A DNA stretch of 64,000 nt from Phycisphaerae bacterium (lineage in GTDB: Bacteria > Planctomycetota > Phycisphaerae > UBA1845 > UTPLA1): assembly GCA_023150615.1 (NCBI GenBank), contig JAKLKO010000006.1, forward strand, positions 124,001-188,000. Direction: 5' to 3'. Both the position numbers and the translations under genes were made by a program. The notes beneath the pieces were generated by a model that saw only the letters and a program-made list of their open reading frames with translations, did not search any database and was not told where the DNA came from. Positions within the stretch are counted from its first letter, which is position 1. Each line of letters starts with the position of its first letter. Below are positions 4,599-53,136 of this stretch, one piece after another.

Positions 4599-4942
4599 GC
4601 GAATCACCATTGCCGCAGATCACGTGGGATGACTTCGCCAAACTGGACTTGCGCATCGCGCGGATCATCGAGGCCGCCGCGCATCCCAATGCCGACAAGC
4701 TGCTCGTGCTTCGCATCGACCTCGGCGCGGAACAGCGGCAGCTTGTGGCCGGAATCCGTGGCTATTACGAGCCGGAGCAGCTCGTCGGCCGCCTGATCGT
4801 CGTCGTCACGAACCTCGCGCCGCGGACGATGCGCGGCATCGAAAGTCAGGGCATGCTTTTGGCCGCATCGACGACCGATCGTTCGCAAGTCATCCTGGTA
4901 TCGCCGTCGGCGGACATCGCACCGGGTTCAAAGGTGTCCTGA
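4595..4942 (+). CDS. Stand-alone tRNA-binding domain protein (MetRS C-terminal/CsaA type)
   Basis: A 115-residue protein consisting of one OB-fold tRNA-binding domain. It shows WDDFAKLDLRIARI, HPNADKLLVLRIDLG, QLVAGI and LAPRTMRGIESQGMLLAA, the same signature as the C-terminal dimerisation/tRNA-binding domain of methionyl-tRNA synthetase and the beta subunit encoded separately in some bacteria. It either supplies this domain in trans to MetRS or acts as a CsaA-like chaperone. The ATGA overlap with the phosphodiesterase gene (4595-4598) indicates translational coupling. A few other details fit a MetRS beta subunit better than CsaA, chiefly the motif MRGIESQGM. Confidence 0.88.
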   Translation: MSESPLPQITWDDFAKLDLRIARIIEAAAHPNADKLLVLRIDLGAEQRQLVAGIRGYYEPEQLVGRLIVVVTNLAPRTMRGIESQGMLLAASTTDRSQVILVSPSADIAPGSKVS

Positions 4943-4971
4943 TTCGGGTTGCCGTGCCGCGGTGGGGGCGC

Positions 4972-5256
4972 TTACGGTCTGGCCCTGGCAAGCGGGTCGC
5001 GCAGAAACCGCCGATGACATTCTGCGCACAGATCGAAGCGCCACTTGCGGAACACGCCGTCCTCGATCTCGTCTGCGCTCATGCGTGCGGCCGCCGCGAT
5101 GAGCCGCCGGATCTCCGCGGCGTAATCGCGCTGCGAATCGTGCTCGGTGATTTCCAGCCGCCCCGCCGCCGCGAAGGCCTCCACGTTGACGATAAAGTGC
5201 CCCTGTCCATCGGACGGCAGGCGGACTCCGCAGCCATCACAGCGATGGTAGATCAT
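4972..5256 (-). CDS. Small CxxC zinc-ribbon protein, unknown function
   Basis: A 94-residue protein with two Cys pairs: HRCDGCG at residues 5-11 and DLCAECHRRF near residue 77, which together could bind one zinc ion. The middle is helical and acidic. It overlaps the end of trpD by four bases (ATGA), so it is translated from the trpD message. No function is recognised; proteins like this near planctomycete housekeeping genes are usually annotated hypothetical. The overlap, ribosome coupling and paired Cys motifs make it a convincing gene rather than a shadow. Confidence 0.7.
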   Translation of the reverse strand: MIYHRCDGCGVRLPSDGQGHFIVNVEAFAAAGRLEITEHDSQRDYAAEIRRLIAAAARMSADEIEDGVFRKWRFDLCAECHRRFLRDPLARARP

Positions 5257-6278
5257 GCCTTGCCCCGGCTCGCGCGCACCCAGTCGGCCAGCGTTTGTGC
5301 TGCCCGGCCCGTGTCGATTGCGTCCGCCGCGCGGCGCGCGGCCGCGTCGAGCGTCGATTCCAGGCCGCCAGCGACGAGGGCCGCCGCGGCGTTCAACAAC
5401 AGGTGATCGCGCGCTGCGCCCAACTGGCCATCGAGAATCGCCCGGATCATCGCCGCGCTCTGCTCCGGTCCGTTCGCCAACAGCGCGTCGATGCTCCCGA
5501 CCTTCATGCCGAAGTCCTCCGGGCGTACCTCAAACGTGCGGCACCGGCCGTCGGCCAGTTGTGTGACGCGCGCGGGGCCGGTGATGGTCAGGTCGCACAG
5601 ACCGTCGTGGCCGCAGACGACGAAGGCGTGTGTGCTGCCGAGCGCCGCCAGCGCCGCTGCGATCAACTCGGTCAGCTCTGGCCGCGGTACGCCGACCAGT
5701 TGCCTCCGCACGCCGGCCGGGTTGGCCAGCGGTCCGAGCAGATTGAACAACGTACGGACGCGCACCTCGCGTCGCGCCGCGGCGACGTGCGCCATCGCGG
5801 GGTGCAGGCGCGCCGCGTTTAGATATGCGATCCGTGCTGTGCGCAAGCTCCGTTCGACAATCGGTGGCGGCGCGTCGATGTCGATCCCCAGCGCGATCGC
5901 GACGTCCGACGATCCGCTGGCGCGCGCGTGGCTGCGGTTGCCGTGCTTTGCTACCGTCGCGCCGGCGGCTGTTGCGACGATGGCGGCGGCCGTCGAGACA
6001 TTGAAGGTGTTGATTCCATCGCCGCCCGTGCCACACGTGTCGATCGCGTCGGGGGCGTCGCACGCGATCCGCGACATGTGCTGCCGGAGCACGGTGGCCG
6101 CGGCGACGAGTTCCTCCACCGTAGGGAGGCGCCGGCTGGTCGCGAGGAGAAACCGCGTCGTCTGTTCGTGTGAAATCGCGCCGCTCAAGAGCGCGCGGAT
6201 GGCCGCCTCGCAGACCTCCGCCGACATGTCACGGTCGGCCTCGAGCTCGGCGATCGCTTCAACAACGGTGTCGTCCAC
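5253..6278 (-). CDS. trpD: Anthranilate phosphoribosyltransferase TrpD
   Basis: A 341-residue enzyme of tryptophan synthesis that joins anthranilate and PRPP to give phosphoribosylanthranilate. Diagnostic motifs are DTCGTGGDGINTFNVST (PRPP-binding glycine-rich loop, near residue 82), AKHGNRS, SDVAIALGI, LHPAMAHV and RTLFNLLGPLANP. The length is normal for the family. The downstream zinc-ribbon gene overlaps its stop. trpC lies alone 21 kb away, so trp genes are scattered rather than in one operon. It is divergent from the nucleoside hydrolase gene (167-base gap). Confidence 0.97.
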   Translation of the reverse strand: MDDTVVEAIAELEADRDMSAEVCEAAIRALLSGAISHEQTTRFLLATSRRLPTVEELVAAATVLRQHMSRIACDAPDAIDTCGTGGDGINTFNVSTAAAIVATAAGATVAKHGNRSHARASGSSDVAIALGIDIDAPPPIVERSLRTARIAYLNAARLHPAMAHVAAARREVRVRTLFNLLGPLANPAGVRRQLVGVPRPELTELIAAALAALGSTHAFVVCGHDGLCDLTITGPARVTQLADGRCRTFEVRPEDFGMKVGSIDALLANGPEQSAAMIRAILDGQLGAARDHLLLNAAAALVAGGLESTLDAAARRAADAIDTGRAAQTLADWVRASRGKA

Positions 6279-32060: not shown

Positions 32061-33053
32061 CTAAACGGCGTCGGCCGCGGACGTCGTTGTCGGTGCGGAT
32101 TCAGTCGGTTTCCGCTCGGGCGGCGCTCCGCGAACAAGCGAAATGGCGAGAACGACGCCCGCGGCGGTGCTGACGAGCGTCCCGACCGACACGAGCGGTG
32201 CGTAGGCGTTCTTCTGGAGGAGGGCGAACAGCGCGCCGGAGGTCAGGAGCATCGCAATCCCCGCTGTCGGCTGAGAGAAGATCGTCTCGACCATCGCGGC
32301 CAGCAGCGCCAGCCCGCAGGCGCTGTAGTTCCAGCCGCCGCCCGCGAGTCCGATCCGTCGCGCGACGGTCAGGTATGCAGCCGGGAACGCGACCGCCCAG
32401 AACGCGTTGTACGGATCAAACCCGTCGGGATTGCGGACGCCGCGCAGCAGATGATCGACCGCCAGCAGCGCACCGAGCACGATCAGGATCGTCCGTGCGA
32501 TCTGGAATCGGTTCTTCATGAGCGCATCGAATGGGGACGGCTTTCGGGTGATGCTTTGCAGCACAGGCGCTCTGGGCATCGCGGCACGCGCGCCGGACGG
32601 CGGGGCAATGACCACCGGCGACGGGGCCACGTCCTCGATGCTGTATCGCAACTGGAATGACCCGATCCGCAGCACCTGGTTCGGCTGGATGACGTTGCTG
32701 GCCGTCGACTCGGATGGCTTGCCGCCGTAGCTGCTCCCGACGAAGACCTCCAGCCGGCCGTCGGCCGCAAGCCGGAACGTGCAGTGCTGCGCTGCAACAG
32801 AGTCATCGAGCAGGTATAGCCACGATCCCTCCAGCGAGCCGACCGTAAGGTCCTTGCCTACTGGCAGCAGCAGCCGCTCGCCGATGCGATCCGGCCCGCC
32901 GGTGATGGTCAGAAATCCCCGCCGGCGTTGGCCGTTGATCGTCAGATCAAGGTCGAGCTCGGTTCGGCAAACGGGGCAGTGCACTGCCTCGAGCACGTCG
33001 GTTCGTGCGGTTTCAATCGCTTCGCCGCAGGGACAGAAGATGATCTCGGCCAT
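32061..33053 (-). CDS. Membrane protein with zinc ribbon and FHA domain
   Basis: A 330-residue protein. The N terminus has two Cys pairs (FCPCGEAI, HCPVCRTEL), consistent with a zinc ribbon. An FHA domain follows (residues about 50-145), with LTVGSLEGSWLYLLDDSVAAQHCTFRL and VIQPNQVLRIGSFQLRY. After an Ala/Pro linker there are about four hydrophobic helices (residues 205-300). FHA domains bind phosphothreonine peptides, so it may be a membrane-tethered reader for a Ser/Thr kinase; no kinase of that kind lies in the window. It converges on the second MoxR gene (11-base gap). Confidence 0.8.
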   Translation of the reverse strand: MAEIIFCPCGEAIETARTDVLEAVHCPVCRTELDLDLTINGQRRRGFLTITGGPDRIGERLLLPVGKDLTVGSLEGSWLYLLDDSVAAQHCTFRLAADGRLEVFVGSSYGGKPSESTASNVIQPNQVLRIGSFQLRYSIEDVAPSPVVIAPPSGARAAMPRAPVLQSITRKPSPFDALMKNRFQIARTILIVLGALLAVDHLLRGVRNPDGFDPYNAFWAVAFPAAYLTVARRIGLAGGGWNYSACGLALLAAMVETIFSQPTAGIAMLLTSGALFALLQKNAYAPLVSVGTLVSTAAGVVLAISLVRGAPPERKPTESAPTTTSAADAV

Positions 33054-33114
33054 GTGTCGCCCGGTCCGTGTGCCCGTGGACCGCCCGTTCGGCCAGTTTC
33101 GGCGGACGTGACGA

Positions 33115-34506
33115 TTATTGCAAGACCGATAGCCCCGTCGTATTCGGCACCGCCAGCACGTCGTAGCCGTCGCTGCCGGTTCCGCGCACGCGTACGAGCT
33201 GCCCGACGTCGAATTCTCCGCCGCGGACGTACGTCACGCTGTCGATCTCGGGCGCCTGACCGGCATGCCGCCCTGGATACACTCCGTCGCGTCCAAAGGC
33301 GTCGATGACGACGTCAAATCTCCGCCCAGCCATGGCCCGCGCCTTTTCGAATGCGATCGGCTGCTGCGCCTCCATCAGCGCTGCGACGCGCGATTGCTTC
33401 ACCTTCTGAGGCAGTTGATGACGCATCCGTCCGGACGGCGTCTCGGGTTCGAGCGAATAGGGGAAGACGCCGACGGCATCGAAGCGTTGCTCGCGCACGA
33501 ACTCGACCAGTTCCGCAAACTCCGCGTCCGTCTCGCCCGGAAAGCCGGCGATGAACGTCGTTCGCAGCGACACGCCGCGGATACGATCCCGCAGGCGTCG
33601 CAGCAGCGATTCGGTCCCGGCCCGGTCGATGCGACGATGCATCGCCTTGAGCACGCGGTCGTTGATGTGTTGCAGCGGAATGTCCACGTACTTCACAACG
33701 CGCGTGCACTCCGCAATCGCGTCGATCAGCGCCTCATCCACCTCGGTCGGATAAACGTACATCAGGCGAATCCACGTTGCGCCGTCGAGGCGATCCAGCT
33801 CCCGCAGCAGTCCGGCCAGACCCGGGGCGTAGCCGATGTCGCGCCCGTAGCTCGTCGTGTCCTGGCCGATCAGGATCAGCTCGCGGACGCCGTCGTCGAT
33901 CATCTCGCGGCATTCGTCGAGGATGCGTTCAACGGGCTTGCAGTGCATCGGACCGCGGATGCTCGGGATCGTGCAGAACGTGCACTTCTGGTCGCAGCCC
34001 TCGCTGATCCGCACGTATGCGTAGTGCGGCGGTGTCAGCCGAACCCGCGCGCGATCGGTCCATTCCTTCGACCGCAGCGGGTGATATTCGGCGAGAAAGA
34101 CGAGCGGTTCACCCGGCCGGCGATTGCCGTTCGCGCGCGCCGATCGACGGGATCCCGGCGCAACCGCCCGGACGATGTCCTCGCGGTTGTTCACGCCGAC
34201 GAGGGCATCGATCTCCGGCACTTCTTCGACAAGGCGCTGGCCATCGCGCTGCACGAGACAGCCGGCGACCACCAGCCGCCGAATCTCGCCGCGGCGCTTC
34301 CGCGCCGCCGCATCGCGCAGGATACCCAGGGCCTCGTCCCGCGACGTCGCGAGGAACCCGCACGTATTGACCACCAGCACGTCGGCGCCGACAGCCTCCG
34401 ACGCGATCGCGCAGCCCGACTCGGCCAGCAGACCCAGCATCTTCTCCGAGTCCACGAGGTTCTTCGGACAGCCGAGCGAAACCAGCGACACGGTCGGCTT
34501 CGACAT
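33115..34506 (-). CDS. rimO: Ribosomal protein S12 methylthiotransferase RimO
   Basis: A 463-residue radical SAM enzyme that methylthiolates an Asp of ribosomal protein S12. The N-terminal UPF0004 domain has SLVSLGCPKNLVDSEKMLG, typical of RimO rather than MiaB, and Cys residues at NTCGF and AGCLVQRD that bind the second cluster. The radical SAM motif is EGCDQKCTFCTIPSIRG. A TRAM domain ends the protein (GRDGVYPGRHAGQAPEIDSV ... GQLVRVRG). It is slightly longer than the E. coli protein, with an insertion around residue 115-140. Start ATG 34506. Confidence 0.96.
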   Translation of the reverse strand: MSKPTVSLVSLGCPKNLVDSEKMLGLLAESGCAIASEAVGADVLVVNTCGFLATSRDEALGILRDAAARKRRGEIRRLVVAGCLVQRDGQRLVEEVPEIDALVGVNNREDIVRAVAPGSRRSARANGNRRPGEPLVFLAEYHPLRSKEWTDRARVRLTPPHYAYVRISEGCDQKCTFCTIPSIRGPMHCKPVERILDECREMIDDGVRELILIGQDTTSYGRDIGYAPGLAGLLRELDRLDGATWIRLMYVYPTEVDEALIDAIAECTRVVKYVDIPLQHINDRVLKAMHRRIDRAGTESLLRRLRDRIRGVSLRTTFIAGFPGETDAEFAELVEFVREQRFDAVGVFPYSLEPETPSGRMRHQLPQKVKQSRVAALMEAQQPIAFEKARAMAGRRFDVVIDAFGRDGVYPGRHAGQAPEIDSVTYVRGGEFDVGQLVRVRGTGSDGYDVLAVPNTTGLSVLQ

Positions 34507-41481: not shown

Positions 41482-42720
41482 TCAGTCCTTCAGCCAGCGC
41501 GCGGCCGCCTTGCGCAGCCGCGGGGCGGTGTCGATCGATTCCCACGTAAAACCCGGGCGCCCGAAGTGCCCGTGCGCGGCGGTCTGCTCATAGACCGGCC
41601 GGCGGAGCTTGAGTTGCTCGATGATGCCGCGCGGCGTGAGCGGGAAGTGATCGCGAACGAGCTTGGACAGGATCTCCTCGTCGACGCGGGCCGTGCACTC
41701 GGAATCGATCAGGACGCTGACGGGTTCTGCGACTCCGATGGCATAGGCAAGCTGAACTTCGCAGACGTCGGCGAGCTTCGCGGCGACGATGTTTTTCGCG
41801 ATGTGCCGCGCCATGTAGCTCGCGGAGCGATCGACCTTGGAAGGGTCCTTGCCCGAGAACGCGCCGCCGCCGTGCGCGCCGCGCCCGCCGTAGGTGTCCA
41901 CGATGATCTTTCGTCCGGTCAGGCCCGTGTCGCCGTGCGGACCGCCGACGACGAACCGCCCGGTGGGATTGATATGGAACACGATGTCGCGGTTCCAGAG
42001 CTTCGCGTCTTCCTTCATGACCACGGGGCGGATGACACGGTCGATGATGATCGATCGGAACTTCTCGTTGATGTTGCCCTTGCGGTCGAGTAGGTCGCGG
42101 CGCTCCTCGTGCTGGGTCGAAACCACGACCGTGTGCAGGCGGTGCGGCTTGTTGTCGCGATACTCGATCGTCACCTGACTCTTTCCATCCGGCTTCAGCC
42201 AGTCGATCTCGCCGCGCTCGCGTGCCTCGGCCAGCCGCTCGCAGATGCGGTGGGCGAGGTGGATCGGCAGCGGCATCAGCGCCCGCGTCTCGCGGCAAGC
42301 GAAGCCGAACATTAGGCCCTGATCCCCGGCGCCCTGCGCGTGCGTTCGCGTCGCGTCGACGCCCTGCGAGATGTCCGGCGACTGGCTGTGAAGACTGCGA
42401 AGCACCGCGCAACTCTGGTAGTCGAAGCGCAGGAGCGGGTCCACGTAGCCGATCCGCCGGATCGTCCGCCGCGCCGTCTCCTCGGCCGAGTTGAGCGCGT
42501 CGATTGCGGCCTGATTATGAACGGTCACCTCACCCGAGATCACCACCAGCCCGGTCGTGCACAGCGTCTCGCACGCCACGCGGGCGTACGGGTCCTTGGC
42601 GAGCAGGCTGTCGAGGATCGCGTCGGAAATCTGATCGGAGACCTTGTCCGGATGCCCCATCGTCACCGATTCGGACGTGAACAGATGCGAGGGGCGATGG
42701 TTGTTTCGTTGTCCCTTCAC
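41482..42720 (-). CDS. metK: S-adenosylmethionine synthetase
   Basis: A 412-residue enzyme forming SAM from methionine and ATP. It has [20 protein letters not shown] (ATP/methionine site), [33 protein letters not shown] and [20 protein letters not shown] with the KVDRSASY continuation. The start is GTG 42720, chosen because GGAGGAA lies seven bases upstream. Length is slightly above the E. coli enzyme. A good promoter (TTGTAC-17-TACGAT) lies 67-95 bases upstream; no SAM riboswitch was recognised in the 170-base divergent gap. Confidence 0.97.
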
Positions 42721-42890: not shown

Positions 42891-43976
42891 GTGCCCAATC
42901 CCCGACACATCCTGGTCGTGCTGCCGAACTGGGTCGGCGACGTCGTGCTGGCGACGCCCTCATTGATGGCGCTGCGACGGCGCTATCCCGCCGCGCGGAT
43001 CGGCTACCTCGCCCGGGCGTACGTGGCCGACGTGCTGAGCGGCTGCTCTTGGCACGACGAGCTGTTGCACTGGCCCGACGCGCGCGGGGCGGGGGGGCTG
43101 TGGAACTTGGTGTGCGAACTGCGCCGGCGGGCGTTCGACTGCGCAATCCTGCTTCCAAACTCCTTCCGTTCCGCGCTGGCCGTCTGGCTTGCTCGCATCC
43201 CGCGACGCATCGGCTACGCCCGCGACGCCCGGGGCTGGATGCTCACCGACCGGATCGATCCGCCGCGCGACGGCCGGCGATTCGCCGCGATCTCGATGCT
43301 CGACTATTACCATCGCCTGTTCGAGCGGGCCGACTGCGGCGATGTGGGGCGGCGGCTCTCGCTTTCGTACGATCCGCAGGACGCCGAGCGGTTGGAGGCC
43401 CGCGTACCGCCTCAGACGGATAATCGTCCGCTGGTCGTGCTGAATCCCGGCGGCGCCTACGGCACGGCCAAGCTCTGGCCGGCCGAGAGGTTCGCCGCGC
43501 TGGCGGAGCGTCTCGTTGCGGAGTTCGGCGCGCGTGTGCTGGTGACGGGCACGCCGGGCGAGCGTTCGATCGGTGAAACAATCGCCGGTTGCAGCCGCGT
43601 CCCGCTAGAGACGTATTTCGATCCGCCGCTCGGGTTGGGGCCGCTCAAGGCGCTGATCGAACGCGCGGACCTTCTCGTAACCAACGACACGGGACCGCGC
43701 CATTTTGCGATCGCGTTCGGCGTGTCGGTCGTCACGATCTTCGGCCCGACCGATCCCGCCTGGACGGAAACGCATTTCGCCGACGAGCGCAAGGTGTCGT
43801 TGTCGCTCGACTGCCAGCCGTGCCAGGAGAAGATCTGTCCGCTCGGCCACACGAACTGCATGCGGCAGCTTGAGGTGGATGCCGTCTTCGCGGCGGCGCG
43901 CGACTTGTTGCAGCGACGACTTTCAGATCGGGCGAGCGACCACGTTGCGGTTCGCACGGGCGGTGGTGGACGATGA
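42891..43976 (+). CDS. Glycosyltransferase family 9, heptosyltransferase II-like
   Basis: A 361-residue GT-B enzyme. The N terminus HILVVLPNWVGDVVLATPSLM and the donor-site motifs GGAYGTAKLWPAERFAALA, LVTNDTGPRHFAIAFG and FGPTDPAWT match WaaF-type heptosyltransferases, and the Cys-rich tail CQPCQEKICPLGHTNCM is typical of them. It would add ADP-heptose to the inner core of lipopolysaccharide. GTG 42891 is the best start, although its ribosome site is poor (GAAGG about 15 bases away). It opens a seven-gene envelope operon, overlapping the next gene by four bases. Confidence 0.9.
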   Translation: MPNPRHILVVLPNWVGDVVLATPSLMALRRRYPAARIGYLARAYVADVLSGCSWHDELLHWPDARGAGGLWNLVCELRRRAFDCAILLPNSFRSALAVWLARIPRRIGYARDARGWMLTDRIDPPRDGRRFAAISMLDYYHRLFERADCGDVGRRLSLSYDPQDAERLEARVPPQTDNRPLVVLNPGGAYGTAKLWPAERFAALAERLVAEFGARVLVTGTPGERSIGETIAGCSRVPLETYFDPPLGLGPLKALIERADLLVTNDTGPRHFAIAFGVSVVTIFGPTDPAWTETHFADERKVSLSLDCQPCQEKICPLGHTNCMRQLEVDAVFAAARDLLQRRLSDRASDHVAVRTGGGGR

Positions 43977-44860
43977 TCGTCGAGACCGATCGGATGCACG
44001 TCGACTCGCCGTATCGGCAGGCGATCGCCGAAGCCGGCCTCGCGTCGGTGGAAGCGGTCCTGACCACGTTGGGTGATCGGCTGGTGGCTTGGAGCCGCAC
44101 GTCCGATACGATCTTCGCCTCGCTGCCGCGCTCGAACACCGGCGTCTACATCAAGCGCTATCACTATCCGCGCTGGCGACAGCGAGTGCGGCTCGCCCTC
44201 CGCGGGACGGTGCTGCGCAGCAGTCGCGCGCGGGCTGAGTTCCGCATTCTCAGAAACATGCGCCGCCACGGCATCCAGGCCGTCCGGCCCATCGCCTGGG
44301 GCGAGCGCCGCCGCTACGGCACGGTCCGGAGCTGCTTCCTGATGACTGAGGCGGTCCCGGAGTCGATGGCGCTTTCGTCGTTCATTCACACGTTTGGCGG
44401 ACGGCACTCGTCGTATCGCACGCCCGCCGCGATGCGCGCCCGGCGCGTGATCCTGACGACGCTGGCGGAACAGATCCGCTTCATGCACAACGCCGGCTTC
44501 GTGCATCGCGACCTGTTCTGGCGCAACGTGCTGATTCGTCCGCTGCCCAACCAGGAGTTCGAGTTCTACTTCCTCGACGCGTCGGTCGGACGCCGCATCC
44601 GCGTCCGGCAGTGGCGCAAGGAGTCGATCGTCCGCGACCTCGCGGCGATCGCCGTGCTCGCGCCGGAGTTCTGCTCGCGCGCCGACCAGCTCCGCTTCAT
44701 TCGCGTGTATCTCGACACCGAGCGCATCGACGACGAGGCCCGACGCTGGATGGAGCTGGTCCAGCAGCGCGCCCGCGGCCTTCGCTCGGCCGAACAGCAG
44801 CGCATGTTCCGCGAGCGCGTCTTCGATCGCATTCGCGCCGAACCGGTGGGCATCCTGTGA
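43973..44860 (+). CDS. Lipopolysaccharide kinase-family protein (WaaP/InaA-like), single domain
   Basis: A 295-residue kinase-fold protein. It has a beta-3 Lys in GVYIKRYHYP, a helix-C Glu in SRARAEFRIL, the catalytic loop GFVHRDLFWRNVLI (near residue 175) and the metal Asp in EFYFLDASVGR. All four catalytic elements of the LPS-kinase family (WaaP/KdkA/InaA) are present. It likely phosphorylates a core sugar of lipopolysaccharide or a lipid-linked acceptor; specificity cannot be inferred. ATG 43973 overlaps the heptosyltransferase stop and its stop overlaps GTG 44857 of the next kinase gene. Confidence 0.87.
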   Translation: MIVETDRMHVDSPYRQAIAEAGLASVEAVLTTLGDRLVAWSRTSDTIFASLPRSNTGVYIKRYHYPRWRQRVRLALRGTVLRSSRARAEFRILRNMRRHGIQAVRPIAWGERRRYGTVRSCFLMTEAVPESMALSSFIHTFGGRHSSYRTPAAMRARRVILTTLAEQIRFMHNAGFVHRDLFWRNVLIRPLPNQEFEFYFLDASVGRRIRVRQWRKESIVRDLAAIAVLAPEFCSRADQLRFIRVYLDTERIDDEARRWMELVQQRARGLRSAEQQRMFRERVFDRIRAEPVGIL

Positions 44861-45660
44861 ACGACCGGTCCGGCGCGCGCTGGAGCATCCGCTTGAGAGA
44901 ATTCGCCGACCTGCTCACGTCGTGCGGCTTCCTCGCCTACGAGGACTTCGCCCGATCATCGCGCGGCGACGCCGTCAGCCGCACGGGGACGTCCGAGACC
45001 CGCAGGCTTGAACTGCGCAACGGCGCCCGGTCGGAGCTCGTCTTCCTCAAGCAGTACCGCTATGGCGGGCCGCGGACGCGGTCGCGATTCCGCCGACATA
45101 AGGGCGCGATCGAGGCCCGCAACTACGAACGGCTCCGGCGCTGCGGCGTGCCGGTGCCGGACGTCGTGGCGCTCGGCTCGCGGTGCGTCGGCTGGCAACT
45201 CGCCGATGCGTTCATCATGACCCGCGGCATTCGCGACGCCCGTCCGCTCGATGAGGCCTGGCCACAACGGTCCGCATCGACTCCGGCGGATCGGGCGTGG
45301 CGCCGCGCCGTAGCAGAACGCTTGCTTGAAATCGTGACGCGGATGCACCGTCGGCACTTTTACCACATCGATCTCCAGTGGCGGAACATCCTCGTTGCTG
45401 ACGGACCGCGCGGGCCGGAACTGACTGTCATCGACTCGTCGCGCGGCGGCCGGCGGTGGAGTCCCTGGATGCGGCGGCACTGCCGACTACGGGACCTCGC
45501 CAGCCTCGACAAGTCGGCGCGGCAGTGGGTTTCGCGCACCGATCGCGTTCGCTGGCTGAAGCGGTATTCGTCCGCTGCCGGACGCGCAATGGACTGGCGC
45601 GACGTGGCGCGCTGGATCGGACGAGATCGCGCGAGAAAGCAGGGAGCGGCCGGTCCGTGA
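44857..45660 (+). CDS. Second lipopolysaccharide kinase-family protein
   Basis: A 267-residue paralogue-like kinase: beta-3 Lys in ELVFLKQYRYGG, helix-C Glu in EARNYERLRR, catalytic loop HFYHIDLQWRNILV (Arg of HRD replaced by Ile) and metal Asp in LTVIDSSRGG. GTG 44857 overlaps the upstream stop, and the stop overlaps GTG 45657. It is similar in organisation to its neighbours but clearly diverged, not a recent duplicate. It is expected to act on LPS core; the change at the HRD Arg is common in this family and does not imply loss of activity. Confidence 0.84.
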   Translation: MNDRSGARWSIRLREFADLLTSCGFLAYEDFARSSRGDAVSRTGTSETRRLELRNGARSELVFLKQYRYGGPRTRSRFRRHKGAIEARNYERLRRCGVPVPDVVALGSRCVGWQLADAFIMTRGIRDARPLDEAWPQRSASTPADRAWRRAVAERLLEIVTRMHRRHFYHIDLQWRNILVADGPRGPELTVIDSSRGGRRWSPWMRRHCRLRDLASLDKSARQWVSRTDRVRWLKRYSSAAGRAMDWRDVARWIGRDRARKQGAAGP

Positions 45661-47321
45661 AGACAAACGTCCAGATCGAGCCGCAGTACGCGGCCGTGCT
45701 CGCGGCAGCCGGCCTGACCGAGTTTGACGCGTTCATGGAGCGTCGGCCGGACGGCCCGCCCGCGAGCGTGCACCGGCATCGCGAGACGGTCCCGATCTGC
45801 GTGAACGGCCAGCCCGCGCCGCGCCGCTTCTTTCTCAAGCGCGTCTTCCGCGTGCCCGCGAAGCACGCCCGCGCGGACTGGCTCCGCCGTCGAGTTGCCC
45901 GCTCGCAGGCCTGGCGCGAATGGGAGGCCATCGCGCGGCTGGAGTCGGCCCGGATCGGCGTCATGCGCCGCGTGGCGGTCGGCGAGCGTCGGCGCGGCGT
46001 TCGAGCGGTCTCGGCGTTCCTGCTCGTCGAGGCCGTCGAGGCCGAGCGAACCGTCGCCGACTGGCTGCGGATGCATGACGGCGTGACGTCGCGGATGCGT
46101 CACCGTTTGTTCGCCGCCCTCGGCGAGACGGCCGGCCGCCTGATTCGTGCCGGACTCCGTTGGCCCGACGCGCATCCACGGCACGTCTTCGCCGCGCCGG
46201 CGGACGATGTCCCGCACGGCTGGCGGCTCTGGTTGATCGACGTCGAGCGCGTCGAATCATCGCAATCGACTCCGGACTTTTGGGCCACCTGGGTCCGCCG
46301 GCTCCTGCCGGTCGAGCCGACGCGGTTCGAGCAGCTCGCGTTCTGGTCGCGGTTCTGCTGTGCGTCTGGCCTGCCGCGCACCGCACCGGTCGGCGAGGCG
46401 TCCCGGATGCTCGCGTCCACGTCGCGCTTCGTGCCGCTTCGACGGCCGACCGATTCCAGTGACGCACCGCGCGGCCTGATCAATCGCGACGGCGTCTGGC
46501 GCGATCCATCGAGCGAGCCGTTGCTGGAGTCGCTCGGAATGCGCGATGCGGCGGAGTTGTTCCGCGCGAGGAACGGCTCGCCGCTGGACAAGCCCGGCCT
46601 GGATGCGCACCGCCGCCGGGAGCGAATCGAGGTTGATTTGAACGGCCGGCGCGAAACGGTCTTCCTGAAGCGGTGGCTCTCGCCGCCGCTGGCGGCGCAG
46701 CTTCGTCGCATCGCGGGCGGCGCACCGTGGCGTGCCACGGCACGGATCGAATGGCGTGCCGCGCGGCGCCTGGCCATGGTGGGCATCGACGTGCCCCGCG
46801 TGCTGCTCGTCGCGAGCGAGATGCTCGGGCCGTGGGAATGCCGCAGCGCCCTGTTGATGCGCGAGGCGGCCGGTACGTCGCTAGAGCAGTGGGTCCCGCA
46901 GCACTGGAACGGCCTGTCGCGGGCGAAGCGCAACGCCGTAATCGCGCAAGTCGCCGCGGTCGCGCGGATCATGCACCGTGCGGGGCTGTTTCATCGCGAC
47001 CTCTACCTCTCGCACCTGTTCGTGACCGTCGACGACGCCGGGTTGCCGCGCGTCTCGCTGATAGACCTTGGCCGCGTGCTGGACTCACCGCTGCGGCGGG
47101 AACGATGGCGGATCAAGGACCTCGCCGCGTTGCACTACAGCGCCCCGTCGGAATTGGTCGGCCGGACCGATCGCTTCCGTTTCCTGCGGGCCTATGCGAC
47201 CGATCTGGCCGGACCGCGTCGCCGCGTCGATCGCCACGCACGGTATCGGCGGTGGATCGGATCCATCGAGTCCCGTGCGGTCCGGATCGCCCGCCACGAT
47301 CGAAAGCGAGGCCGTGCGTGA
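45657..47321 (+). CDS. Protein with two fused LPS-kinase-family domains
   Basis: A 554-residue protein made of two kinase-like units. Domain 1 (about 15-260): beta-3 Lys in RRFFLKRVFRVP, a catalytic loop degenerate to RWPDAHPRHVF (Trp-Pro in place of His-Arg, Asp retained) and LIDVERVE. Domain 2 (about 290-545): Lys in TVFLKRWLSPP, GLFHRDLYLSHLFV and SLIDLGRVLD, a full WaaP-type set with His where ordinary kinases have Asn. Domain 1 may be inactive, may have altered specificity, or may be a regulatory unit. Starts at GTG 45657, overlapping the previous stop, and overlaps the glycosyltransferase start (GTGA). Confidence 0.84.
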   Translation: MKTNVQIEPQYAAVLAAAGLTEFDAFMERRPDGPPASVHRHRETVPICVNGQPAPRRFFLKRVFRVPAKHARADWLRRRVARSQAWREWEAIARLESARIGVMRRVAVGERRRGVRAVSAFLLVEAVEAERTVADWLRMHDGVTSRMRHRLFAALGETAGRLIRAGLRWPDAHPRHVFAAPADDVPHGWRLWLIDVERVESSQSTPDFWATWVRRLLPVEPTRFEQLAFWSRFCCASGLPRTAPVGEASRMLASTSRFVPLRRPTDSSDAPRGLINRDGVWRDPSSEPLLESLGMRDAAELFRARNGSPLDKPGLDAHRRRERIEVDLNGRRETVFLKRWLSPPLAAQLRRIAGGAPWRATARIEWRAARRLAMVGIDVPRVLLVASEMLGPWECRSALLMREAAGTSLEQWVPQHWNGLSRAKRNAVIAQVAAVARIMHRAGLFHRDLYLSHLFVTVDDAGLPRVSLIDLGRVLDSPLRRERWRIKDLAALHYSAPSELVGRTDRFRFLRAYATDLAGPRRRVDRHARYRRWIGSIESRAVRIARHDRKRGRA

Positions 47322-48520
47322 AGGTCGGCGTCTTCATCGAACGCGTCGAGCCCTGGCGCGGCGGAGCGGAGACGAGCACGCGCGAGCTGGTCGACGGGCT
47401 TGCGGCGCGCGGTTGCGACGTCACGGTCGTCGCCAGCAGCCCGGATCCCGGCTGGCCGGGCGCGCGATACGAACGACTCGAAGTCGGCGGCGTTCTGAAG
47501 CCGCTCCGCACCCGGACGTTCGTGCGCCGCGCGGGCGAGTTCCTGGCGACACGTCGATTCGACATCGTGCACGCGATCGCGCCGCTGGACGTCTGCGATG
47601 TGTATCAGCCGCGCGGCGGACTGGTCTGCGAGACGCTCGACCGGAACGTCGCGATCCGTCGCTCCGCGGCGCGGCGCTGGGCCAAGCGCATGGTCCACCG
47701 CCTGAGCCTCAAGCAGCGCAGTCTGCTCGAGCTGGAACGCCGCATCTTCCGCCCGAACGGACCGTGGATCGCCGCGGTCTCGCGCTATGTCGCCGATCAG
47801 GTCGCGCGACATTACCCGGCGGCCGCGCCGCGCGTCCGCGTCGTCTTCAACGGCGTGTCGCTCGATCCACCCGGATCGTCCGAGCGGATCGCCGCGCGGC
47901 AGCGCGTGCGGCAGATGCACGGCGTGCCGGACGGGGCGACGCTGATGATCTGCGTCGCGCACAACTTCCGGCTGAAAGGCGTAGGGATCCTGCTCGAAGC
48001 GGCCGCGCAGGCGCTGCGGGCGAAGGCCCTGCCCATCCACGTGCTGATCATCGGGCGCGACCGGGACGCGACGTACCGCGTCCGCGCGGCGCGGCTCGGC
48101 CTCGCCGGATCGGTGCGGTTCATCGGCTCCGTGGCGCGGATCACCGACTACTTCGCGGCGGCCGACGTCCTGCTGCACCCGACGTTCTACGATCCGTGCA
48201 GCCGCGTCGTGCTCGAAGCGCTCTGCTGCGGCGTGCCCTGCGTGACGACGCGCTTCAACGGCGCGGCGGAGAAGATCATCGACGGCACGCATGGATACGT
48301 GCTTGACGCGCCGGACGATGCGGCCGCGCTCGCGGACCGAATGCTCCGCCTGATGGACTCCTCGCTGCGCGCGCGCATGGCCGACGCCGCGCGGGCGCTG
48401 GCACCGCAGTTGCACATGCGTCGGCACGTGGATGAGCTGCTGGGCATGTACGATGAGGTGATGGCGAATCGCTCCGAGCCGCGGCCGGTCTATTCCGGCG
48501 GCGGCGTGCCGGTGCGCTAG
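47318..48520 (+). CDS. Glycosyltransferase family 4, LPS core type
   Basis: A 400-residue GT-B enzyme with the N-terminal VEPWRGGAETSTRELVDGLA, a middle VVFNGVSLD, and the donor-site region HPTFYDPCSRVVLEALCCG followed by VPCVTTRFNGAAEKI (EX7E-like arrangement). This resembles WaaG-like core glycosyltransferases, which transfer glucose or related sugars to LPS. GTG 47318 overlaps the double-kinase stop. Position between kinases and the deacetylase supports a role in core or capsule assembly. Confidence 0.88.
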   Translation: MKVGVFIERVEPWRGGAETSTRELVDGLAARGCDVTVVASSPDPGWPGARYERLEVGGVLKPLRTRTFVRRAGEFLATRRFDIVHAIAPLDVCDVYQPRGGLVCETLDRNVAIRRSAARRWAKRMVHRLSLKQRSLLELERRIFRPNGPWIAAVSRYVADQVARHYPAAAPRVRVVFNGVSLDPPGSSERIAARQRVRQMHGVPDGATLMICVAHNFRLKGVGILLEAAAQALRAKALPIHVLIIGRDRDATYRVRAARLGLAGSVRFIGSVARITDYFAAADVLLHPTFYDPCSRVVLEALCCGVPCVTTRFNGAAEKIIDGTHGYVLDAPDDAAALADRMLRLMDSSLRARMADAARALAPQLHMRRHVDELLGMYDEVMANRSEPRPVYSGGGVPVR

Positions 48521-48541
48521 GTCCCGCCGAGGAAGTCCGCG

Positions 48542-49360
48542 ATGTTTGGCGAAGGCAAACGCTGGGTCCGCTGGCTGCGGCAGCGCGGGCTTCTGCGTCG
48601 CGGGCGTTCGATGCGGATCGAGGGCAGGTTGCTCGTTCTTTCGTTCGATTACGAGCGCGGATTCGCGGGCGAAGATCTGCACGCCGCGGACGAAGGACTG
48701 GCGCGCGCGCTTGAACTCCTCCGAGATTGCGGTGCCCGCGCCACGTTCAACTGCGTCGCGAAGATCTCGCTCGTCGCGCCGCAGCGCATTGCCGAGATCC
48801 TCGCCGCCGGACACGAAGTCGCCTGCCACGGCTACGAGCACGAATCACCGCGCGACCTCCCGGACGAAGCGCTGGATCGCATGTTGGCGAATTGCGTCGA
48901 GGCGTTCGGACAAATCGGCCATCGGCCGCGCGGCTTCCGCTCGCCGCGCTCGCATTGGGACCGGCGCCTGCTCCAACGCCTGGCACCGCATGGCTTCGCG
49001 TACAGCGCCGAGCACGATGCGGCGCCCGCTCCGTACGCCCTGTCGTTCGGCGACGCGTCGCTCTGGCGGATGCCCATCGCGACGGATGACTGGGACGATG
49101 TCCGGCATCCCGGGCAGTCCGAGCGCGTCTCGCGCGACCATCTCAATCGCCTGCACCGCCGGTTCGCTCGCCACACGTACCTCGCCCTCGGCTATCATCC
49201 GTGGCTGCTGGCCGGAAACCCGCATCGAGTGGAACGACTGAAAGCGATGATCAGACAGGCGATGGCAAGTGGCGTGCGCATGTGCGCGTTCGATGATCTG
49301 CTCGGCGAGGATACGACGTTTCTTCGCGCATCACGCAGCGCGGAGGAGCAGACCGCGTGA
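48542..49360 (+). CDS. Polysaccharide deacetylase family protein
   Basis: A 272-residue NodB-fold enzyme: LVLSFDYERG carries the catalytic Asp, ACHGYEHESP gives the metal-binding His pair, and GFRSPRSHWD is the conserved third motif. No signal peptide is seen, but the N terminus is basic (RWVRWLRQRGLLRRGR). It could remove acetyl groups from a sugar of the envelope polysaccharide made by neighbouring genes. It starts 22 bases after the glycosyltransferase and overlaps plsY (GTGA). Confidence 0.86.
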   Translation: MFGEGKRWVRWLRQRGLLRRGRSMRIEGRLLVLSFDYERGFAGEDLHAADEGLARALELLRDCGARATFNCVAKISLVAPQRIAEILAAGHEVACHGYEHESPRDLPDEALDRMLANCVEAFGQIGHRPRGFRSPRSHWDRRLLQRLAPHGFAYSAEHDAAPAPYALSFGDASLWRMPIATDDWDDVRHPGQSERVSRDHLNRLHRRFARHTYLALGYHPWLLAGNPHRVERLKAMIRQAMASGVRMCAFDDLLGEDTTFLRASRSAEEQTA

Positions 49361-50088
49361 TGCTCGCGCTGTTCGTTATCGGTTCCTACCTCATCGCGTC
49401 AATCCCCTTCGGATTGCTCATCGCGCGGGCTCGCGGCGTCGACATCCGAGCGTGCGGCAGCGGCAACATCGGCGCGACCAACGTCGGCCGGATCCTGGGG
49501 CGCAAGTGGGGACTCCTGGTCCTGATGCTCGATGCGCTCAAGGGCGCGACGCCGGTCGTGCTTGCCGGCTGGCTCACGCGGCGTAACCCGGCCTTCGTCC
49601 CGTTCGACGGTCCGATGGTCGTCGACTGGACGCTTTTGGCGGTCGCGATCGCATGTCTGGCCGGGAGCGTCGCGCCGATACTTGCGGGTTTTCGGGGCGG
49701 CAAGGCGGTCGCCACGTCGTTGGGCATCGTGCTGGCAATCCCGCCGCTGTGGGAAGCGGTGGCGGTCGCCCTGGTCTGCTACCTGGTCGCACGAAAGCTC
49801 AGTGGTTTTGTCTCCGTAGGCTCACTCGTTGCGGCGACCGTACTTCCGCTCGCGTGTCTGTTGCTCTGGCGGATCGGCCGCTTCGACATGACGCGACACG
49901 CCCCGCTGATGTTGCTCGTTCTGACACTGACGGCGATCGTGTTCATCCGCCACCGCGCAAACGTCGCCCGGCTCCTCGCGGGGACCGAACCGCAACCCCC
50001 CGCGGCGGACGATCCAGCGGTGCGCTCGGATGCCGTTGGGACCGAATCGCCGAGGGAGTCAGGCCATTCCGGAGCGTCGGCCCGATAA
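49357..50088 (+). CDS. plsY: Glycerol-3-phosphate acyltransferase PlsY
   Basis: A 243-residue multi-helix membrane protein with the PlsY signatures GSGNIGATNVGR (motif 1), GWLTRR..., and GFRGGKAVATSLGI (motif 2/3). It transfers an acyl group from acyl-phosphate to glycerol 3-phosphate, the first step of phospholipid synthesis. GTG 49357 gives MM at the start and overlaps the deacetylase stop; ATG 49360 is equally possible. The C terminus has a Pro/Asp/Ser-rich extension of about 30 residues beyond the typical family end. Confidence 0.94.
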   Translation: MMLALFVIGSYLIASIPFGLLIARARGVDIRACGSGNIGATNVGRILGRKWGLLVLMLDALKGATPVVLAGWLTRRNPAFVPFDGPMVVDWTLLAVAIACLAGSVAPILAGFRGGKAVATSLGIVLAIPPLWEAVAVALVCYLVARKLSGFVSVGSLVAATVLPLACLLLWRIGRFDMTRHAPLMLLVLTLTAIVFIRHRANVARLLAGTEPQPPAADDPAVRSDAVGTESPRESGHSGASAR

Positions 50089-50364
50089 TTTCGCGCCTGC
50101 CCGTTGCGCGATCGGTGAAACTCCGTCGTTGAAGCGAGCTTGATCCGCCCGTTCTGCCGAGATAAACTACGGATGAGCCTCGCACTCGGGAGGCACCAGC
50201 GCGCGAACGGCCGATAACCATCGGTGTTTCAGGGGGCTGTCGCGACGTCGCCGGGGCTTCCATCCAGATCGGTTTGACGCCGCGCCTTCCCGGTGTCGAT
50301 CGAAACCGAATCGCCCAAGCGTCCGCGGTACGGGCCGCCATGCCGGTCCGGGGAGAGTTCTGCC

Positions 50365-53136
50365 ATGCGTTGTCCGACACGTCGGTCCATCCTCGTCGCA
50401 ACCCTCGCGCTCAGCACGACGTTGCTTACCACCGGTTGCGGCATCCTGGTCATCCTGCCGTGGGGGACGATTCAGACGACGCAACGCTTCGACCTCCCCA
50501 ACTTCACCGTCGACTTCAGCATCGTCAACGCCGTCTCCGACCCCAGCGCCGTCACCTCCGTCAACTGGGTCTTCGGCGATGCGGCCGGTTTCGTGGTTGG
50601 CGGCACGACGATCTCGCACCAGTACGCCGCGGGCGGCACGTACAACATCAGCGCCTTCGTATTCGGCATCAACGGGCTTGTCGGCGAGATCACGGGCACG
50701 CTCATCGTCAACGTCCCGGACAAGGCAACGCAGCCCAGTCCTGCCAACGGCGCAATCGATGTCAGCGTCAACGTCACGCTCTCATGGACGCCTGGAAACA
50801 GCTCGCCGCAACACGACGTTTTCCTCGGAACGGACATGGCCGCCGTGGCGGCTGCGACCACCGCGAGCCCCGAGTATCAGGGACGCAGGACGCCTGCCAA
50901 CTTAACGCCGACGACGCTCATGGGTGCGACCGTCTATTTCTGGCGCGTGGACGAGGTTCGGGCCAGCGGCACGACGACGGGCGACATCTGGAGCTTCACT
51001 ACCGCCGTTCCGCCGGGGGCCGCGAGCGGGTTCATCCCGGCGGATCTCAGCACGGGCGTCGAGATCGACGTCGAACTGATGTGGACCGCCGGCAGCAGCG
51101 CCACCAGTCACGACGTGTACTTCGGCACGACGTTCGCCGCGGTCGATGCGGCAACGCGGATGTCGGGCGAATTCCGCGGCAACCAGGCGACCACGAGCTT
51201 CTCACCCACCGGGCTCGCGCCGGGCACGGACTACTACTGGCGCATCGACGAAGTCGGGCCTGGGGGCACGACCAAGGGTGTGGTCAATACGTTCTCGACG
51301 GCGCCCGTCCCCGGACAGATCACAAGTCCATCCCCGGCCGATGACGCGGTCGATGTGCCGATCGCCGTCGTGCTGACGTGGACCGCCGGCACCGATACGA
51401 CCAGTCACGACGTTTACTTTGGCACCAGCGAGTCGGCCGTGACCAACGCCACGACCGCCAGCCCCGAGTTCCAGGAAAACCTGGCCGGCACGATGTTCGA
51501 CCCCGAAGACGTCGTTGCGAACACGACCTACTTCTGGCGCGTGGACGGGGTCGGCCCGGGTGGCACGACCAAGGGCGCGACGCTGAGCTTTACGACGATC
51601 GAAGCGCCCGGGCAGATCACCGATCCGGATCCCGAGTCGGGCGAGTTGGGCGTCTCGCTCAACCCGACGCTCTCGTGGACGGCCGATCCGCTTGCGACGT
51701 CGCACGACGTCTACTTCGGGACCGACGCCACCGCGGTCAACAATGCGACGGAAGGCAGTCCGGAATTTCAGGGCAATCAGGCCGGAACGATGTTCACCCC
51801 GGCCGGTCCGCTTACGAGCAACACGCAGTACTTCTGGCGCATCGATGAGAAGGGCGACGGCGGTACGACGAAGGGCGCGGTCCTCAGCTTCACCACGCTC
51901 GATGAAGAGGCCGCGTCCGATCCGACGCCCGCCCACGAGGCGACCGATGTGCCGACAAGCCAGGTCCTGAGCTGGATGGCCGGCACGGGCGCCACCAGCC
52001 ACGACGTCTATCTCGGCACCAACGAGACGGCCGTGACGAACGCGACCACGGCCAGCGCCGAATTCCAGGGGAATTTCCCGTCGGCCATGTTCACGCCGGC
52101 CTCGCTCGATCCCGGCACGACGTACTTCTGGCGGATCGACGAAGTGAACATGGATGGCACGGTCAAGGGCCTCATTTGGCAGTTTACGACCGTGCAGACG
52201 CCGCCCGAGCAGGCGCAGAATCCGAATCCGGCCGACGGCGCGGTTGACATCGCGCTGAACGAGCAGTTGAGCTGGACCGCCGGCGCGCGGGCGTCCAGCC
52301 ACGACGTGTACTTCGGAACCGACATGACGGCCGTCACAAACGCGACGACGGCCAGTGCGGAATTCAAGGGCAATCGTCCGACCACGAACTACAACCCCGG
52401 CGCGCTCACGCGCAACCAGACGTACTACTGGCGGATCGATGAGAAGAACTCGGCCGGGACGACGACCGGGGCGGTCTGGTCGTTTACGACGATTCCGGAT
52501 CCGCCGACCAAGGCGACGATGCCGATGCCGACGGATGCGGCGACCGGTCAGAACGTCAACAACCCGAGCAGCCTGATCCCGCTCATGCTGAGCTGGACGG
52601 CCGGAACGGGCAGCGGGACGATAACGCACGATGTGTTCTTCGGAACGAGCTTGACGAGCGTGACGAACGCGACCACCGCGACCGCAGGCATCTTCCGCGG
52701 CAATCAGGCCTCCACGACGTTTGATCCGGGCTCACTGACCGCGAACACCACGTATTACTGGCGGATCGACGAGCGGAATGCCGGCGGCGCGACCAAGGGC
52801 GATGTCTTCAGCTTTACTACTGCGGCCGCACCCACGCAGGCCAACACGCCGGTTCCGGCGAGCGGCGCGCAGGGTCAGAGTACGACGCCGACGCTGATGT
52901 GGACCGCCGGCACCGGTGCCACGTCGCACGACGTGTACTTCGGGACGTCATCGACCTCGGTCAACAACGCCGTCCGCCAGCCGCCGAGTGCCGAGTTCCG
53001 CGGCAACCAGGCCGGAACGAGCTTCATGCCGGCCGAGACGTTGAACGCGGATACGGTCTACTTCTGGCGAGTCGACGAAGTCGGTCCGGGCGGCATCACG
53101 AAGGGAGAAGTTTTCAGCTTCCGCACCGCGCCCTGA
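50365..53136 (+). CDS. Lipoprotein with PKD domain and eight fibronectin-like repeats
   Basis: A 923-residue exported protein. A lipobox LLTTGC (Cys near residue 22) follows the signal ATLALSTTLL. A PKD-like domain comes next (VFGDAAGFVVGGTTISHQYAAG near 60-115), then eight tandem repeats of about 100 residues, each running from SPADxAxDV through SWTAGTxATSHDVYFGT to YYWRIDEVGxGGTTKG and FSFTT. This fibronectin-like unit is widespread in planctomycete surface proteins. It probably forms a long rod anchored to the outer membrane, with binding rather than catalytic function. ATG 50365 has GGGGAG about eight bases upstream. Confidence 0.88.
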   Translation: MRCPTRRSILVATLALSTTLLTTGCGILVILPWGTIQTTQRFDLPNFTVDFSIVNAVSDPSAVTSVNWVFGDAAGFVVGGTTISHQYAAGGTYNISAFVFGINGLVGEITGTLIVNVPDKATQPSPANGAIDVSVNVTLSWTPGNSSPQHDVFLGTDMAAVAAATTASPEYQGRRTPANLTPTTLMGATVYFWRVDEVRASGTTTGDIWSFTTAVPPGAASGFIPADLSTGVEIDVELMWTAGSSATSHDVYFGTTFAAVDAATRMSGEFRGNQATTSFSPTGLAPGTDYYWRIDEVGPGGTTKGVVNTFSTAPVPGQITSPSPADDAVDVPIAVVLTWTAGTDTTSHDVYFGTSESAVTNATTASPEFQENLAGTMFDPEDVVANTTYFWRVDGVGPGGTTKGATLSFTTIEAPGQITDPDPESGELGVSLNPTLSWTADPLATSHDVYFGTDATAVNNATEGSPEFQGNQAGTMFTPAGPLTSNTQYFWRIDEKGDGGTTKGAVLSFTTLDEEAASDPTPAHEATDVPTSQVLSWMAGTGATSHDVYLGTNETAVTNATTASAEFQGNFPSAMFTPASLDPGTTYFWRIDEVNMDGTVKGLIWQFTTVQTPPEQAQNPNPADGAVDIALNEQLSWTAGARASSHDVYFGTDMTAVTNATTASAEFKGNRPTTNYNPGALTRNQTYYWRIDEKNSAGTTTGAVWSFTTIPDPPTKATMPMPTDAATGQNVNNPSSLIPLMLSWTAGTGSGTITHDVFFGTSLTSVTNATTATAGIFRGNQASTTFDPGSLTANTTYYWRIDERNAGGATKGDVFSFTTAAAPTQANTPVPASGAQGQSTTPTLMWTAGTGATSHDVYFGTSSTSVNNAVRQPPSAEFRGNQAGTSFMPAETLNADTVYFWRVDEVGPGGITKGEVFSFRTAP
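50725..53133 (+). repeat. Eight tandem fibronectin-like repeats (about 100 codons each)
   Basis: The coding sequence from 50725 repeats the unit HDVYFGT ... YYWRIDE ... SFTT eight times at near-regular spacing. The units share motifs strongly at the protein level and moderately at the DNA level (for example repeated GTCTACTTCGG/ TACTTCTGGCGC stretches), so the region is prone to recombination or assembly collapse. Unit 7 is longer by about ten residues. Confidence 0.85.

Follow-up and report, generated by a model that had tools for sequence, protein, structure and literature searches.

A conserved planctomycete operon carrying four Kdo/WaaP-family kinase domains, predicted to assemble and phosphorylate the lipopolysaccharide inner core

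The window analyzed here, a stretch of 64,000 nucleotides from a Phycisphaerae bacterium, carries an operon on the forward strand (positions 42891-50088) in which three consecutive genes encode four kinase domains of the Kdo/WaaP family. Judged by their sequences, these domains are old, separately conserved subfamilies that predate the bacterial family to which the organism belongs (f1). The operon is probably a cluster for assembly and phosphorylation of the lipopolysaccharide (LPS) inner core, with predicted acceptors, order of steps and activities of the individual domains. This reading rests on homology, conservation, catalytic residues and the presence of the required pathway genes. The operon consists of seven genes, with K3 and K4 denoting the two halves of a fused double kinase:

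42891..43976, + strand: HepT, lipopolysaccharide heptosyltransferase II (WaaF type), GTG start, PF01075 127 bits
43973..44860, + strand: K1, single-domain Kdo/WaaP-family kinase of the Asn type (HRDLFWRN), PF06293 72 bits
44857..45660, + strand: K2, single-domain Kdo/WaaP-family kinase of the Asn type (HIDLQWRN), GTG start, PF06293 69 bits
45657..47321, + strand: K3-K4, fused double kinase, GTG start, PF06293 159 bits in two stretches
45657..46445, + strand: K3, N-terminal domain of the fusion, of the His type, WPD replacing HRD (WPDAHPRH), PF06293 70.6 bits
46446..47321, + strand: K4, C-terminal domain of the fusion, of the WaaP type (HRDLYLSH), PF06293 93.4 bits
47318..48520, + strand: WaaG-like GT4 glycosyltransferase, GTG start, PF00534 98 bits
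48542..49360, + strand: polysaccharide deacetylase, optional cluster member, PF01522 51.6 bits
49357..50088, + strand: PlsY, glycerol-3-phosphate acyltransferase, GTG start, TIGR00023

Five of the six gene junctions are four-base NTGA overlaps (ATGA or GTGA) of start and stop codons, which makes coupled translation of the genes probable; the sixth is a gap of 21 bases. The coordinates bear out the original prediction of nearly overlapping envelope genes, including plsY, over some 7 kb, and the four LPS-kinase-family domains that it had placed in three consecutive genes all lie well above the curated PF06293 cut-off of 21.3 bits. A chance arrangement or frame artefact is ruled out, as gene order and reading frame are conserved across genera. 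Upstream the operon is flanked by a divergent metK gene (41482-42720). Directly downstream, positions 50293-53136 encode a protein of 947 amino acids that has a PKD match and numerous Ig/fibronectin-like repeats. A scan for promoters and terminators gave no signal clearly exceeding that of shuffled sequences. The host genome comprises 4.1 Mb and is 99.6% complete.

None of the operon kinases should bear the name of a characterized LPS kinase, because all remain below the relevant equivalog cut-offs: for the RfaP/WaaP heptose(I) kinase (NF011703, 170 bits), K3 and K4 together score 130.6, K1 61.8 and K2 45.2 bits, and for the KdkA Kdo kinase (NF002475, 142 bits) they reach at most 51.4 bits. 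K4 is thus termed WaaP-type rather than WaaP. Nevertheless, the catalytic Lys, the alpha-C Glu, the catalytic Asp and the Mg-binding Asp, equivalent to K51, E78, D163 and D188 in WaaP numbering, are kept in all four domains of the window. The position of WaaP H168, which binds the second Mg (PMC6147952), is occupied by Asn in K1 and K2 and by His in K3 and K4. The four catalytic loops given in the original prediction proved exact. The conclusion it drew from them, that their differences point to different acceptors, is not supported: the loops are part of the ATP/Mg apparatus, from which no acceptor can be told.

A tree of 85 kinase domains, which included WaaP as well as InaA and WaaY from Escherichia coli, resolved K1, K2 and K3 as separate clades (SH-aLRT 99, 100 and 99, respectively) and placed K4 in a clade with single-domain relatives (SH-aLRT 94). 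K3 and K4 group with WaaP, while long branches leave the placement of InaA and WaaY unsure. Each of the four orthologous clades is kept across at least 11 genera. A single orthologous family, the outcome that the original prediction had named as fatal to it provided that it had one known substrate, is rejected by the tree. Four old and separately conserved subfamilies suggest four different jobs, and it is plausible on this basis that the domains act on four different acceptors; an ordered phosphorylation series is speculation.

The gene order was followed through 61 related genomes. In the family of the window's organism, the recurrent arrangement is HepT-K1-K2-K3K4-GT4-(deacetylase)-PlsY, with K1 found in 16 of 17 genomes and K2 and the K3-K4 fusion in 15 of 17 each (one fusion gene is cut by a contig end); the deacetylase occurs in seven of these clusters. 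PlsY adjoins GT4 in many related clusters, and the order recurs in related genera, as the original prediction had asked to be checked. In five genomes (G002, G003, G006, G013 and G014) the HepT-K1 pair is located at another place in the genome or on a different contig, and this joint displacement suggests that the two genes move as a unit. One 95% complete member of the same family (G008) serves as a natural negative control: it possesses LpxC and a Kdo transferase and gave no match to any of K1 to K4, which argues that the kinases are dispensable in parts of this family. The sister family f4 has K1-K4-GT4 in 13/13 genomes, directly preceded by HepT in 12 of them, and in the loci read from families f5 and f8, K4 alone (joined by K1 in G042) precedes GT4, mostly together with PlsY. 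Overall, f1 has K1 in common with f4, f6 and a single f5 genome; K2 turned up in f1 and f6, and K3 in these two families and in two genomes of f5. K4 adjoins GT4 in almost every cluster read from f1, f4, f5 and f8, and among 119 genomes sampled from the phylum only K4-like matches occur outside the order, K3 giving no convincing match there. K4 and GT4 can thus be considered the old core of the cluster: judging from this distribution, K4 is the ancestral kinase of WaaP type that accompanies GT4, and K2 and K3 are lineage additions.

The remaining enzymes of the operon and the genomic background fit LPS core synthesis. HepT exceeds the cut-off for heptosyltransferase II (TIGR02195, 199.2 versus 134.6 bits) and shares 29% identity with E. 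coli WaaF over 303 amino acids. The GT4 enzyme is 26% identical to E. coli WaaG over 368 amino acids and is the top match of that protein in its own genome (81 bits compared with 46 for the runner-up); on this basis it is termed WaaG-like, with a putative sugar donor and acceptor. LpxC was found in 61/61 related genomes and a Kdo transferase in 56/61, the window's own genome having both. This genome also encodes a bifunctional HldE-like protein, whose domain II lies above its cut-off and whose domain I falls just below, and two further GT9 proteins beyond HepT, one of which comes near the cut-off for heptosyltransferase I (HepI). Genes for lipid A and heptose, the absence of which would have spoken against the original prediction, are accordingly present. 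In several genomes from families f3, f5 and f6, the HepT-type gene has as its neighbor a gene resembling HldE domain I, whose open frame spans about 340-390 codons (L050, about 4888-5835; loci in G036, G026, G033, G045, G060 and G018). PlsY scores above the cut-off of TIGR00023 (141.9 bits, cut-off 137.2). The suggestion that plsY ties envelope sugar to phospholipid synthesis is speculation: the adjacency is conserved in several families but shows no metabolic link, and PlsY serves phospholipid synthesis in general.

K3 deviates from the canonical pattern. The His of the HRD motif (WaaP H161) is replaced by Trp in 18/18 sequences, the alpha-F Asp position (D206, which contacts H161 in WaaP) is variable, and the DFG position carries D-[VL]-E. 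AlphaFold2 models of K3 and K4, built from shallow alignments of five sequences, gave pLDDT values of 74 and 81 and matched WaaP (6dfl) best, with Z 17.9, rmsd 4.1 over 231 residues for K3 and Z 17.2, rmsd 4.1 over 234 residues for K4. The runner-up fold, PRPK/Bud32, scored about 2 lower (Z ~15). Both predicted models align to residues 1-259 of 6dfl and thus comprise the WaaP fold including the C-terminal subdomain II. By sequence, K4 matches 6dfl with E=4.6e-17. From the basic acyl-ACP surface of WaaP (R221, R222, R226, R229 and others), all 24 K4 sequences retain R226 and are basic at 224, mostly without R222, while most of these positions are lost in the K3 of the window. Two other double-domain proteins were noted. 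One is a 561-amino-acid protein in G030 (L056:7834-9516), whose K3-like domain lacks both catalytic Asp residues (WPELVAKH, LVGVTRM). The other is a second double Kdo-kinase gene of the Asn type in the window's own genome (L061:8547-10499; contig C5, about 32546-34498), which encodes 651 amino acids, lies outside any heptosyltransferase cluster near genes for trehalose synthesis and a metallo-beta-lactamase fold, and is matched in length by PF06293 proteins found widely among genomes of the order, G008 among them.

The catalytic Asp of K1 is not kept in every family. It is present in 17/17 K1 proteins of f1 and f6. K1 of all 13 f4 genomes and of G042 (L058, L060, L069, L087-L096 and L106) carries N, Q, R or A in place of the HRD Asp, and these proteins still keep the Lys, the Glu, the Asn and the metal-binding Asp. 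From this residue pattern, the K1 of f4 is probably a conserved pseudokinase that has been retained in the operon.

We propose that HepT, working on the inner face of the inner membrane, would transfer the second heptose onto lipid A-Kdo-heptose as its acceptor and that the WaaG-like GT4 would extend the core. K4 would act as a WaaP-like kinase paired with GT4, while K1, paired with HepT, as well as K2 and K3 may phosphorylate other core hydroxyls, probably on heptose or Kdo. Such a highly phosphorylated core could allow bridging through divalent cations. K3 and K4 would either constitute one fused two-site enzyme, or K3 would position the substrate for K4. Against this reading stand the scores below the RfaP and KdkA equivalog cut-offs and the genome G008, with its LpxC and Kdo transferase but no K1-K4 match. 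Only tentatively do we go further and suggest that K3-K4 may be an LPS-core kinase with two active sites, K3 representing a new non-HRD subfamily (W-[PL]-D-x3-[KR]-H with D-[VL]-E-R) whose acceptor would be unlike those of WaaP, WapP, WapQ and KdkA, and that K1 may be an active kinase or a retained pseudokinase depending on the family of the order.

In principle, the same operon can be read in ways that differ in how many of the domains are active. It is possible, though we would not favor it, that only some of them are working kinases. Core phosphorylation would then fall to K4 and perhaps K2, and K3, in some lineages also K1, would be a pseudokinase-like partner for binding substrate or nucleotide or for holding the complex together. 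The invariant Trp and the variable alpha-F Asp of K3, its fusion to a canonical K4, the loss of both catalytic Asp residues in the distant K3 of G030 and the Asp-less K1 of f4 and G042 are all in line with such a division of labor. It is countered by K1 and K3 of f1 themselves, which keep the Lys, the Glu, the catalytic Asp and the metal-binding Asp in every genome read; a dead K3 is thus unsupported for the window's own genome, where the catalytic residues are present.

The substrate is a separate matter. Planctomycete envelopes are atypical and GT9 enzymes occur beyond LPS, and since the deacetylase and GT4 belong to general polysaccharide enzymes, the kinases might act on a heptose-containing glycan other than LPS, be it a glycolipid, a capsule or a protein-linked glycan. 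We consider this unlikely in view of the near-universal presence of LpxC and Kdo transferase in the related genomes, the rank of the operon GT4 as best WaaG match and the closeness of the predicted K3 and K4 models to WaaP. That the four domains are redundant recent duplicates sharing one substrate is very improbable. They do all belong to PF06293, but the paralogs of the window are 20-31% identical to one another as against 45-69% to their nearest orthologs, and the four clades, each with its own conserved motif, are older than f1.

Contrary to the original prediction, which held that typical LPS loci contain one or two WaaP/KdkA-type kinases, four core kinases in one cluster are already known from Pseudomonas: the P. 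aeruginosa region PA5006-PA5012 (PA5006, wapQ, wapP, waaP, wapG, waaC, waaF) has four consecutive kinase genes (PMC8707732, PMC8005017). Compared by content, with WaaP 6dfl as the sole Pseudomonas sequence used, both clusters combine four Kdo/WaaP-type kinases with genes for heptosyltransferase and a WaaG-type GT4. The kinase genes of Pseudomonas are, however, all separate, whereas the planctomycete operon has a fused pair, one WPD loop and a single heptosyltransferase, along with the deacetylase and plsY. The planctomycete operon thus stands apart by the fusion of K3 to K4, by the WPD-bearing K3 subfamily and by the company of deacetylase and PlsY. In the E. coli core operon waaQ-waaG-waaP...waaY, GT4 (WaaG) likewise adjoins the WaaP kinase and WaaY is a further kinase, but these are two single-domain kinases of different subfamilies. 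With the heptose(I) kinase WaaP/RfaP (6dfl), K3 and K4 share the predicted fold and the equivalents of K51, E78, D163, H168 and D188; they depart from it in that K4 stays under the RfaP equivalog cut-off and K3 has Trp for H161, and K1 and K2 have Asn for H168. E. coli InaA resembles K3 in having an Asp-Leu/Val-Glu triad where DFG would stand and a His corresponding to H168, but has HGC and lacks the catalytic Asp.

No description of a planctomycete LPS core structure was found in the open-access literature searched. A family-wide cluster of four separately conserved core kinases predicts that this core would be heavily phosphorylated, in parallel to Pseudomonas. Related families with one, two or four kinase domains form a natural series for matching each kinase to its phosphate, and K3 together with the Asp-less K1 proteins may serve as test cases for which catalytic residues the sugar kinases of PF06293 need.
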